This document shows positions 20,326 through 31,514 of a stretch of 58,674 nt of DNA, piece by piece. Under the pieces are notes generated by a model, which was not told the DNA's origin, made no database searches, and worked only from the letters and a program-made list of their open reading frames with translations. The translations under genes and the position numbers were made by a program. Position 1 is the first letter of the stretch. Each line of letters opens with the position of its first letter. The DNA comes from Lutibacter sp. B1 (GTDB lineage: Bacteria > Bacteroidota > Bacteroidia > Flavobacteriales > Flavobacteriaceae), in contig NZ_JAAZUI010000021.1 of NCBI RefSeq assembly GCF_012524075.1, positions 1 through 58,674 on the forward strand. Direction: 5' to 3'.

Positions 20326-20692
20326 CCGGTGGCTGAGCGGAGTCGAAGCCAATCATAATATGGATATGGATAAAGGTTTTGTTTATATATTAGAATGTGC
20401 TGATGGTACATTTTATACAGGAAGCACCAAAGATATAGAGCTTAGATTAAATCAACATCAAAATGGAATAGGCGCAAAATATACTGCTGAACGGCTTCCT
20501 GTTAAACTAATTTATATTGAAGAGTTTACCACTATTTCAGAAGCTTTTTATAGGGAAAAGCAAATTCAAGGATGGAGCAGGAAAAAGAAAGTTGCTTTAA
20601 TAAATAAGAAAATTGAGAACTTGCCTAAATTTTCAGAATGTAATAATGAAACACATTATACTAAAAAGGCTTCGACTCCGCTCAGCCACCGG
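20326..20692 (+). mobile_element. GIY-YIG cassette with perfect 25-bp inverted ends
   Basis: The two ends (20326-20350 and 20668-20692) are perfect reverse complements over 25 bases; the core reads ggctgagcggagtcgaagcc. Between them lies only a small GIY-YIG nuclease reading frame. A diverged third end in the same orientation as the left one is present at 20729-20746 (gttgggcagagtcgaagc). No transposase is present. The arrangement looks like a small mobile cassette, inserted between HMG-CoA reductase and the kinase; I see no convincing target-site duplication. Confidence 0.75.
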
Positions 20693-21664
20693 AATGAAAA
20701 TTCTGAAAATAACGAAAAACAAAATATAGTTGGGCAGAGTCGAAGCTACAGCAACGGAAAATTACTTATTACAGGAGAATATTTTGTGTTAGAAGGAGCA
20801 AAATCACTAGCTGTACCTACTAAATTTGGACAAGATTTAGTGGTAGAACATATAAAAGAACCTCAATTAATTTGGGGCAGTTTTACTGAAAAAGGAAGCT
20901 GTTGGTTGGAAGCTGTTTTTGATTTACCAAAACTTCGCTTAGTAAATGCTTCTTTTAATTCAGAAGAAGAAGGAGGAAATGATAATTTTGCTGAAAATTT
21001 AAACAAAATATTACTTCAAGTTAGAGCGTTAAATCCTGATTTTTTAAATTCAGAAAATGGATTTTTGGTAAAAACGAACGTAACATTTCCTAAAAATTGG
21101 GGATTAGGAACATCTTCAACCTTAATTAATAACTTGGCAAGTTGGGCAAAAGTGAATCCGTATAAATTATTAGCAACTACTTTTGGAGGAAGCGGTTACG
21201 ATATTGCGTGTGCGCAACACAATTCGCCAATTTTATACACTAAAACAGCTACAGAACCAATTGTTGAAGAAGTGATTTTTAATCCTGAATTTAAAGAGCA
21301 ATTGTATTTTGTATATCTCAATAAAAAGCAAAATAGCAGAGAAGGCATTCAGCGGTTTAACACATTAAAAGGGAAATTAATTTCAGAAGTGAACCAAATT
21401 TCAAGTTTAACTGAAGCCATTTTAAAAGCAGATAATTTACATGATTTTGAGAAACTACTTTTTGAGCACGAAAAATTGGTTTCAAAAACGATTCAATTAA
21501 AACCTGTTCAAGAATTGTTGTTTTCAGATTATTTCGGACAAACAAAAAGTTTAGGTGCTTGGGGAGGCGATTTTATTTTAGCAACAGGTAATGATAATAC
21601 TCTTAATTATTTTAAACAAAAAGGATTTGAAACGGTGATTCCGTATCGAGATTTAATTCTGTAA
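20360..21664 (+). CDS. Fusion: GIY-YIG nuclease domain + GYDIA-motif GHMP kinase
   Basis: 434 aa. Residues ~5-85 are a GIY-YIG/UPF0213-type domain: GFVYILECADGTFYTGST, with Arg in ELRLNQH and Glu in SEAFYREKQI. Residues ~103-129 are a linker translated from the cassette's right end and flanking DNA. The GHMP kinase runs from about Tyr130: YSNGKLLITGEYFVLEGAKS, LGTSSTLINNLASW as phosphate loop and GGSGYDIACAQ near the end. The kinase has no in-frame ATG or suitable start of its own, so it must be made as the fusion. Flavobacterial homologues normally start close to the YSNGK motif. Next to HMG-CoA reductase, it is likely a mevalonate-pathway kinase, perhaps the missing phosphomevalonate kinase; that role is inferred. 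Confidence 0.85.
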   Translation: MDMDKGFVYILECADGTFYTGSTKDIELRLNQHQNGIGAKYTAERLPVKLIYIEEFTTISEAFYREKQIQGWSRKKKVALINKKIENLPKFSECNNETHYTKKASTPLSHRNENSENNEKQNIVGQSRSYSNGKLLITGEYFVLEGAKSLAVPTKFGQDLVVEHIKEPQLIWGSFTEKGSCWLEAVFDLPKLRLVNASFNSEEEGGNDNFAENLNKILLQVRALNPDFLNSENGFLVKTNVTFPKNWGLGTSSTLINNLASWAKVNPYKLLATTFGGSGYDIACAQHNSPILYTKTATEPIVEEVIFNPEFKEQLYFVYLNKKQNSREGIQRFNTLKGKLISEVNQISSLTEAILKADNLHDFEKLLFEHEKLVSKTIQLKPVQELLFSDYFGQTKSLGAWGGDFILATGNDNTLNYFKQKGFETVIPYRDLIL

Positions 21665-21679: not shown

Positions 21680-21759
21680 CGTCATTCTGAACTTGTTTCA
21701 GAATCTCAATATATTGGTTATGAACTATTATGAGAACCTGAAATAAATTCAGGTTGACG
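21680..21759. repeat. Two-armed palindromic repeat, intergenic (80 bp)
   Basis: It begins cgtca and ends tgacg. Inside are two hairpins: ttctgaacttgtttcagaa (left arm) and aacctgaaataaattcaggt (right arm). Read on the minus strand, its first 25 bases are identical to 30561-30585 inside mvaD. It lies in the 136-bp gap between the kinase fusion and the next gene. It resembles the dispersed REP-like palindromes of Flavobacteriaceae. Confidence 0.8.
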
Positions 21760-25583: not shown

Positions 25584-25649
25584 TAAGTGCTTTTTTAGGA
25601 TGATATCTTTAATTGCTTATTTTAATTTTAAAGCATAAGTTTAAATATA

Positions 25650-25663
25650 GGCAATCGATTGCG
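25650..25663. promoter_or_regulatory. LacI-family operator, sugar transporter/GH43 unit
   Basis: Centre is a perfect palindrome, gcaatcgattgc (25651-25662), the classic LacI/CcpA-type core. It is followed by gtaaattta, which is shared with the second site at 26878-26891. It is placed 67 bp upstream of the transporter start, where a repressor could block transcription. Confidence 0.7.
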
Positions 25664-25732
25664 TAAATTTAATTAAAACATAGTTACAATACAAGATAAA
25701 AGTGTCTTGTTATATTAACAATTATGATTAGC

Positions 25733-26854: not shown

Positions 26855-26877
26855 AAATTAAGAATGTTTTAAGTTTC

Positions 26878-26891
26878 CGCAATCGGTTGCG
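26878..26891. promoter_or_regulatory. LacI-family operator, GH10 xylanase
   Basis: cgcaatcggttgcg: five-base arms cgcaa and ttgcg around a tcgg centre. The following gtaaattta is identical to the site at 25650-25663, giving 20 of 21 matching bases between the two. It lies 24 bp upstream of the xylanase start. Confidence 0.7.
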
Positions 26892-26951
26892 TAAATTTAC
26901 TTAAATCTTCATAATTAAACAAGAAACAATTTATATTTTAAAATTTTATAA

Positions 26952-30356: not shown

Positions 30357-31514
30357 TTGATTGAGTCAGACTTTATTTTAAATAAATATTCAGTAGAAAA
30401 CATTTCAAACGGAAGTGTAACTTGGAAAACACCTAGCAACATTGCATTGGTAAAATATTGGGGAAAGCAAGAACCTCAAATTCCTGAAAATACTTCTATT
30501 AGTTTTACATTAGATGCTTGTTTTACGTTAACTACATTGGAGTTTACTAAAAAAGAAGTACGTCAACCTGAATTTATTTCAGGTTCCTATCATGAGATGC
30601 TGAAACGAGTTAAGTATGACAAGACAAATTTTAATTTCGAAGTTTTTTTTGAAGGTAAAAAAAAGGATGATTTTAAGCCTAAAATTGCCACATTTTTTAA
30701 AAGAATAGAACATTACGTGCCTTTTTTAAAAGAGTTTGATTTTGTAATAAAATCTCGTAATTCTTTTCCTCATAGCAGCGGAATAGCATCTTCAGCAAGT
30801 GGAATGAGTGCTTTGGCATTATGTATTATGAGTTTAGAACGGTTATTAAGCGGAGTAGAAATGACAGATGAATATTTCAATAAAAAAGCTTCATTTTTAG
30901 CTCGATTGGGTTCCGGTAGTGCGTGCAGAAGTATTGAAGGCGAATTGGTAGTTTGGGGAAGTCATACTGAAATATCAGAAAGTTCAAATTTATACGGAAT
31001 TAAATTTCCTTATAAAGTTCATAAGAATTTTAAAAATTATCACGATACTATTTTATTGGTTGATGAAGGAGAAAAACAAGTTTCAAGTACTGTCGGACAT
31101 CAATTAATGCACAATCATCCGTTTGCACAACAGCGTTTTAATCAGGCTAATAATAACATTTCAAAAATCTCTAAAGTGCTTCAAAATGGTAATTTAAAAG
31201 AATTTATTGCGATAGTTGAAAGTGAAGCATTAAGTTTACATGCAATGATGATGACCAGCAATCCGTATTTTATTTTGATGAAACCAAATACCTTGAAAAT
31301 TATCAATAAAATATGGGAGTTTAGAAGAGAAACAAATTCAAATATTTGTTTTACGTTAGATGCAGGAGCAAATGTTCATGTATTATTTCCTGAAAATGAA
31401 AAGGAGGTTGTTAACAATTTTATTGTTAGTGAGTTAATTCAATTTTGTCAAGAAAATCATTATATTTGTGATAGAATTGGAGTTGGTGCGAAGAAATTTA
31501 AAATTGAGAATTAA
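30357..31514 (+). CDS. mvaD: Diphosphomevalonate decarboxylase with a repeat-encoded insertion
   Basis: 385 aa from a TTG start; no ATG lies nearby in frame and TTG immediately follows the promoter. Landmarks: VTWKTPSNIALVKYWGKQEP near the N-terminus, SFPHSSGIASSASGMSALAL as phosphate loop, SGSACRSIEGELVVWGS and FTLDAGANVHVLFPE. The enzyme uses ATP to convert diphosphomevalonate to isopentenyl diphosphate. Residues 69-88, encoded by 30561-30620, come from an inserted palindromic repeat: RQPEFISGSYHEM then LKRVKYD, absent from the usual loop at this point. The frame is kept, so the enzyme is probably active. The last residues (KFKIEN) also run into the ends of a neighbouring cassette. Confidence 0.92.
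   Translation: MIESDFILNKYSVENISNGSVTWKTPSNIALVKYWGKQEPQIPENTSISFTLDACFTLTTLEFTKKEVRQPEFISGSYHEMLKRVKYDKTNFNFEVFFEGKKKDDFKPKIATFFKRIEHYVPFLKEFDFVIKSRNSFPHSSGIASSASGMSALALCIMSLERLLSGVEMTDEYFNKKASFLARLGSGSACRSIEGELVVWGSHTEISESSNLYGIKFPYKVHKNFKNYHDTILLVDEGEKQVSSTVGHQLMHNHPFAQQRFNQANNNISKISKVLQNGNLKEFIAIVESEALSLHAMMMTSNPYFILMKPNTLKIINKIWEFRRETNSNICFTLDAGANVHVLFPENEKEVVNNFIVSELIQFCQENHYICDRIGVGAKKFKIEN
30561..30620. repeat. REP-like palindromic repeat inside mvaD (60 nt)
   Basis: Exactly 60 nt = 20 codons in frame. The first 25 bases are identical to the minus strand of the intergenic repeat at 21735-21759. The second arm (agatgctgaaacgagttaag) is a decayed version of the other arm (agattctgaaacaagttcag). 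Ends are cgtca and tgaca, the last base differing from the tgacg of the intact copy. The insertion falls in a region of variable length in decarboxylases. Confidence 0.85.

Follow-up and report, generated by a model that had tools for sequence, protein, structure and literature searches.

Rickettsia palindromic elements (RPEs) are short palindromes inserted in frame into the genes of core proteins. A second group of small palindromic repeats, the CGTC REPs, has been described by Di Nocera, De Gregorio and Rocco (2013, PMC3733652). According to the excerpted text of that survey, these repeats have a 5' CGTC tag, an 8-bp stem and a 5-nt loop, occur mostly as head-to-head dimers, and are located within genes in some cases. 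Bacteroidetes are among the phyla that contain them, and RPE-4 and RPE-6 of Rickettsia correspond to the CGTC-4 and CGTC-1 repeats. The same excerpt gives one case, the recB gene of two Xanthomonas species, in which different REPs occupy about one site, and states that CGTC REPs seem to be without a dedicated transposase (PMC3733652).

The window considered here, a stretch of 58,674 nucleotides from Lutibacter sp. B1, contains a dimer of this kind within a gene of the diphosphomevalonate decarboxylase family, mvaD (Table 1). The encoded protein matches the Pfam families PF22700 (MVD-like_N) and PF18376 (MDD_C), both over their cut-offs, and scores 156.7 bits against TIGR01240, under the cut-off of 171.35. 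It is thus a predicted decarboxylase by its family domains, and with this TIGR01240 score its exact substrate is only tentatively assigned. Elsewhere in the window, a 62-nt direct repeat (74 percent; 25640-25701 and 26868-26929) that includes AATCGRTTGCGTAAATTTA is present upstream of two ORFs and is possibly an operator.

Table 1. Positions of the repeats, the nuclease region and the host gene in the window.
Feature	Position	Strand	Description
ERS repeat, left copy of perfect 25-nt inverted pair	20326..20350	+	
Type-A GIY-YIG nuclease region	20360..20647	+	PF01541 E 6.9e-20; within ORF 20360-21664
ERS repeat, right copy of perfect 25-nt inverted pair	20668..20692	-	
Intergenic CGTC-REP dimer	21680..21759	.	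Arms 21681-21705 (+) and 21734-21758 (-); 25 nt in common with mvaD insert
mvaD, diphosphomevalonate decarboxylase family	30357..31514	+	385 aa, intact ORF, TTG start according to the ORF tool
In-frame CGTC-REP dimer in mvaD	30561..30621	+	61 nt, CGTC to GACA
REP arm 1 of mvaD	30562..30586	+	0 mismatches to degenerate REP pattern
REP arm 2 of mvaD	30596..30620	-	2 mismatches to degenerate REP pattern

The original prediction described a REP-like palindrome that had been turned into protein in a core enzyme, and the dimer is indeed located inside the intact 385-aa mvaD reading frame. The 60-nt in-frame segment of that prediction stands insofar as 30561-30620 begins on a codon boundary and supplies 20 codons (69-88, RQPEFISGSYHEMLKRVKYD); the whole element is, however, a 61-nt dimer in which two REP arms are arranged head-to-head. 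Its 60 nt are read in their sole stop-free frame, so the enzyme gains 20 codons and is otherwise undisturbed. The first 25 bases (30561-30585) had been said to match an intergenic palindrome on its minus strand, and they do so exactly (21735-21759); this is the one other exact copy in the window, where a mean of 0 is expected from 100 shuffles. Chance or artefact as the source of the shared 25-mer is ruled out by the shuffles and by copies in relatives. The intergenic dimer is about 80 nt long and its second stem differs from that of the insert, and for this reason it is a relative of the mvaD insert that need not be its template.

When the protein is aligned with solved homologues, the inserted residues have no counterpart, and their position is best explained as the tip of a predicted beta-hairpin loop. 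The alignment would place this loop on the protein surface, where the insert is presumably harmless. Relative to a hand-typed consensus, arm 2 has three changes before its last base, all of which alter an amino acid (Q>R, Q>K and H>Y). Lost pairing in this arm had been read as a sign of selection on the protein, but these three differences fit neutral decay equally well, and arm 2 is still a REP.

The repeat family is well represented in the 3.42-Mb draft genome of Lutibacter sp. B1, in which 56 REP arms were found, and none with a reversed control pattern. As in other CGTC REPs, there are many copies per genome and most form head-to-head dimers, the lengths of which have modes at 61 and 76-81 nt. 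The tag of arm 1 in the mvaD insert is CGTC, and that of arm 2, on the minus strand, is TGTC, a variant listed in PMC3733652. The arm 1 hairpin, AACCTGAA-TTTAT-TTCAGGTT, is within the range of 8-9 bp for the stem and 4-5 nt for the loop, and the arm 2 stem includes one G-T pair and one mismatched pair. The combination of AT at the first two stem positions with a CCA tail is not seen, as arm 1 has AA and a CCT tail, although arm 2 does begin with AT; both traits are frequent but not obligatory in the published repeats, as far as the excerpted text goes (PMC3733652). Around 85 REP dimers there is no clear target-site duplication, only a weak excess at k=4 (5 seen vs 0.9 expected).

A search for other coding copies of the repeat, which had been suggested together with the prediction, was productive. 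Among 54 distinct REP contexts in Lutibacter sp. B1, three further long ORFs contain REPs, and by Pfam these encode AMP-binding, PRAI (phosphoribosylanthranilate isomerase) and methylmalonyl-CoA mutase proteins. At two other loci of this genome (L172 and L181) the REP is near the upstream end of a long frame and is probably untranslated there. At these two loci, as at L203/L237 (genome G023) and L205/L238 (G036), the repeat lies just upstream of or overlaps the likely ORF start, and an effect at the level of translation is possible. A peptide search of 38 genomes gave, among the matches listed, REP peptides in the mvaD long frames of G022, G007, G000, G015 and G010, and REP-derived inserts in a glycosyltransferase gene, so named from the Pfam match of the G023 copy, at L230 (G023), L233 (G010), L234 (G009) and L232 (G022). 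The G022 gene has a frame of 675 aa that reads through many REPs, and in G010, G009 and G022 a GIY-YIG gene adjoins the glycosyltransferase gene. L235 (G016) and L236 (G006) are the same ORF, and in both the REP-derived RHPELVSGSHQ follows a RYDLFT motif. A word-based protein search with the 44-residue region around a REP-derived insert gave 25 candidates, of which 22 were retained, each of them carrying the Pfam domains of mvaD; its filter is strict, and these mvaD-only matches do not speak against such peptides in other proteins.

GIY-YIG nuclease genes are found with these repeats both in the window and beyond it. The segment 20326-20692 is an ERS-flanked GIY-YIG cassette, sister to a REP-bracketed type. 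Its ORF stays open across the right ERS copy and continues in frame as further protein, and the downstream part matches no Pfam family. Lutibacter sp. B1 has two type-B GIY-YIG genes of its own, on contigs C114 and C115, each located inside a REP pair about 320 nt apart. The GIY-YIG protein scores 61.8 bits against PF01541 (cut-off 22.6), and all 40 aligned rows, among them the query, have Y7, Y18, G20, R28 and E65. Of these, Y7, Y18, R28 and E65 are residues with catalytic roles in GIY-YIG nucleases.

Across the genus, 71 GIY-YIG rows were compiled, 69 of which were scored against both one type-B and one type-A protein (one row was unscored against type A and one against either). With cut-offs chosen from gaps in the sorted list, a REP lies within 400 nt of 16 of the 18 rows with at least 88 bits to type B, vs 2 of 53 rows at lower scores, and an ERS is present at 7 of the 8 rows with at least 120 bits to type A, vs 0 of 63. 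At a preset 80 bits, the corresponding counts are 17/28 vs 1/43 for REP and 7/30 vs 0/41 for ERS; one locus, L318, is counted as a non-match (its GIY-YIG frame was misplaced) although it holds 10 ERS copies. There is no crossing within the genus: no type-B row has an ERS, and no type-A row (at least 80 bits) has a REP.

The pattern extends beyond the genus. When the best type-B match was taken from each of the 30 best-scoring genomes (30 genera, that of the window included) among 199 Flavobacteriaceae genomes, all 30 loci had a REP within 400 nt; REPs were present on both sides in 26, and the nearest copies faced inward in 19 of those 26. Judged by copy number, a random point would have a REP nearby in about 2-3 percent of cases. 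REPs were found at none of 20 low-scoring Flavobacteriaceae GIY-YIG genes (61-68 bits), in a family-wide comparison that covers GIY-YIG loci scoring up to about 70 bits and from about 97 bits upward, and at none of 20 uvrC genes. A phylum-wide sample had a REP at 21 of 29 type-B loci, with the pattern lacking at the other 8. For type A the link across the family is weaker (ERS at 5/30 loci, an ERS core at 13/30).

A plasmid collection contained 33 records with a type-B relative, of which 16, mostly proteobacterial replicons, were examined. Under a hairpin rule (stems of at least 7) that was tightened after a first pass on the same loci, 11 of the 16 have their GIY-YIG gene enclosed by two inward-facing CGTC hairpins: Sinorhizobium meliloti, two Shinella, Rhizobium CIAT894, Neorhizobium, Azospirillum, two Sphingobium (which have the same neighbours and are therefore not independent), Novosphingobium, Aeromonas and Neisseria. 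The inward pair is absent at the Sinorhizobium K101, Rhizobium tumorigenes, Spirosoma and Planktothrix loci, and the Photobacterium locus has a single hairpin on one side only. Such a pair occurs in 56 of 2496 control windows and at none of four further GIY-YIG genes, of which one shares the S. meliloti replicon. The annotated neighbours of these cassettes vary (gltA/lpxB, amidohydrolase/hydrolase, sufB/sufC, fnrL). On the Azospirillum lipoferum plasmid AZO_p3 (L505), the hairpin-bracketed gene is located between sufB and sufC. Specific GIY-YIG subtypes are thus bracketed by their cognate repeats.

A model can be built on this association in which the nuclease would mobilise the REPs. The mobile element would be a single-domain GIY-YIG nuclease gene between inward copies of the same CGTC REP, and a REP dimer would be that element minus its gene. 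The nuclease would recognise REP hairpins and cut, so acting at the REPs or copying them, and repair from another copy would spread the repeat, either alone or together with the gene. Dimers as short as 60-61 nt could also enter genes, since they have one open reading frame; the mvaD insert may have been made by such a nuclease. Given the lack of a clear target duplication, a cut-and-repair path fits better than a classical transposase, although this is not proof, and the bracketing could instead reflect a gene that merely inserts into REPs. We consider it likely that mvaD carries a non-autonomous REP dimer, probably spread by a type-B-like GIY-YIG nuclease and tolerated in a recurrently invaded loop. 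It also seems reasonable, on balance, to extend this to the CGTC REPs of Bacteroidota and Proteobacteria in general, as the non-autonomous progeny of a family of GIY-YIG elements in which type B serves REP and type A serves ERS, and which keeps writing peptides into the loops of core enzymes such as MvaD.

Inserts in this loop recur among relatives. An mvaD match is present in 34 of 38 Lutibacter genomes, and in 19 of the 34 genes the same loop carries an in-frame insert that clearly derives from a repeat, contrary to the earlier expectation that other decarboxylases would not have the extra stretch. The loop is REP-derived in 13 (at most 4 mismatches) and ERS-derived in 7 (1 mismatch), with both in G010, and in each case 0 of 300 shuffles were as good. 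Three loops that look like relics (G028, G011 and G018) are left out of the 19, and 12 loops have no recognisable repeat. The two repeat families are unrelated, with no sequence in common. A plain loop has 9-14 residues, invaded ones have up to 64, and the loops of close relatives are mutually unrelated in sequence, at 10 to 64 residues. A loop of this kind made of unrelated DNA in genomes free of the repeat had been named as the counter-case, and was not seen in that form: where other Lutibacter loops hold unrelated DNA, it is another repeat, which is multi-copy in most of those genomes. Beyond these 34 genes, 51 of 54 loci could be scored: the loops at L101 and at the Polaribacter locus L142 are REP-like (4 mismatches, 0/300 shuffles), and that at L114 is borderline (5 mismatches, 1/300 shuffles). 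In another flavobacterial MAG (L109), the mvaD loop carries yet another sort of palindrome (CCCGATAGTTATCGGGA).

Frequent invasion of the loop could also reflect nearby donors, with repeats from the repeat-rich stretch upstream of mvaD copied locally by repair or slippage. Other repeats occur close to mvaD in 17 of 32 neighbourhoods, all upstream and none downstream, where the scan reached less far (mostly about 2-5.7 kb, and 28 kb for the window), and in seven genomes a GIY-YIG gene is located 3.6-13 kb upstream. G025, G015, G031, G013 and G030, however, have the insert with no other repeat in the scanned 14 kb upstream. In the window, the GIY-YIG gene about 10 kb upstream is of type A with ERSs and not of type B with REPs, and therefore cannot simply be named the source of the mvaD REP. 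Local donors are possible, if tentative, as a general explanation, and they complement nuclease-driven spread more than they compete with it.

It may also be that a single ancestral REP insertion was followed by gene conversion by other repeats, decay and deletion, with no new insertions. On a tree of mvaD minus the loop (44 rows), presence or absence of an insert changes 9 times, repeat family 13 times and finer type 15 times (7-11, 11-15 and 15-16 over 1000 bootstrap trees); these counts mix gains with losses and depend on how states were coded and on the outgroup rows, some of which are loci picked for their inserts. That the counts are blind to the direction of change would suit a single insertion, as would the weak support for the deep branches of the tree and the short loops of G008 and G003, which could be relics. 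REP and ERS have no common sequence, however, and conversion cannot turn one into the other. Presence and absence alone, moreover, require the 7-11 bootstrap changes, in a coding with 24 positive rows that include relics and insert-selected outgroups. In the clearest single contrast, G031 and G034 differ at just 48 of 996 nt outside the loop, yet the loop holds a REP in G031 and an ERS array in G034. A single insertion is therefore unlikely. The mvaD loop in Lutibacter is a recurrently invaded site, in which REP and ERS have replaced one another many times.

If the inserted peptide were useful to MvaD, through stability, partner binding or regulation, it could have been kept by selection. The pairwise evidence for selection on the peptide is mixed. 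Two sister pairs have proportionally fewer differences in the loop than elsewhere in mvaD (3/87 vs 82/996 nt for G022/G007; 2/51 vs 121/993 nt for G029/G030), and this, like the repeated use of one loop in 19 of 34 genomes, would be expected of a useful peptide. The third pair, G031/G021, shows the opposite (9/60 vs 94/993 nt). The unrelated sequences and uneven lengths of close relatives' loops, the 12 of 34 loops without a recognisable repeat, and the fact that all three arm 2 changes in the window copy alter amino acids also argue against such a role, which we regard as very unlikely.

That the REPs are instead moved by a RAYT-type (Y1) tyrosine transposase, with the GIY-YIG gene a passenger inserting near them, is highly improbable: according to PMC3733652, GTAG REPs have RAYTs as their accepted partners, and a Y1 match is present in 20 of the 38 genomes of the genus, but there is no such match in Lutibacter sp. 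B1 or in the REP-rich G022, G002, G003, G008 and G009, neither REP nor ERS is found within the examined flanks of any of 30 genus Y1 loci, and CGTC units flank no RAYT or IS200-type gene according to the same paper.

The REPs and GIY-YIG genes described here are best compared with several known systems in turn. REPtrons and REPINs likewise combine many gene-less dimers with a small gene, for a nuclease or transposase, that sits between REPs facing inward. The REPtron gene is a Y1 transposase (PF01797) and its repeats have a GTAG tag, whereas here the gene encodes a GIY-YIG nuclease (PF01541) and the tag is CGTC; a REP-bracketed Y1 gene, which defines the REPtron, was not seen in the genome of the window or at the 30 genus loci. 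Single-domain GIY-YIG proteins and homing endonucleases have in common with the nuclease a match to PF01541, and there is a weak, sub-threshold match to TIGR01453 (group I intron endonuclease). The 92-aa protein here differs in that it has no intron and no partner domain and is bracketed by REPs. No description of an association between GIY-YIG genes and REPs was found in the titles and abstract openings listed by searches of open-access papers, bioRxiv excluded, and earlier publication elsewhere is possible.

The CGTC REPs of PMC3733652, as excerpted, have tag, stem, loop and dimer form in common with the Lutibacter REPs, which differ in their tail (CTC/CCT, vs CCA in the published repeats). 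The published repeats also seem to be without a dedicated transposase, whereas those described here bracket a GIY-YIG subtype. What moves the widespread CGTC REPs was left open by the 2013 survey, and the REP-bracketed subtype is a concrete candidate. If true, this would supply a mobilising enzyme for CGTC REPs and add a nuclease class to the routes by which small repeats spread. The mvaD loop, in turn, is a natural repeated experiment on mobile DNA becoming protein: with unrelated repeats in one loop of closely related species, it becomes possible to compare directly how far such peptides are tolerated, how they decay and whether they may be put to use. Recurrence at this one loop across the genus is far denser than in the recB case, as the excerpt of PMC3733652 presents it. 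The mvaD insert and the RPEs are alike in being protein-coding palindromes in the genes of core proteins, and differ in sequence.
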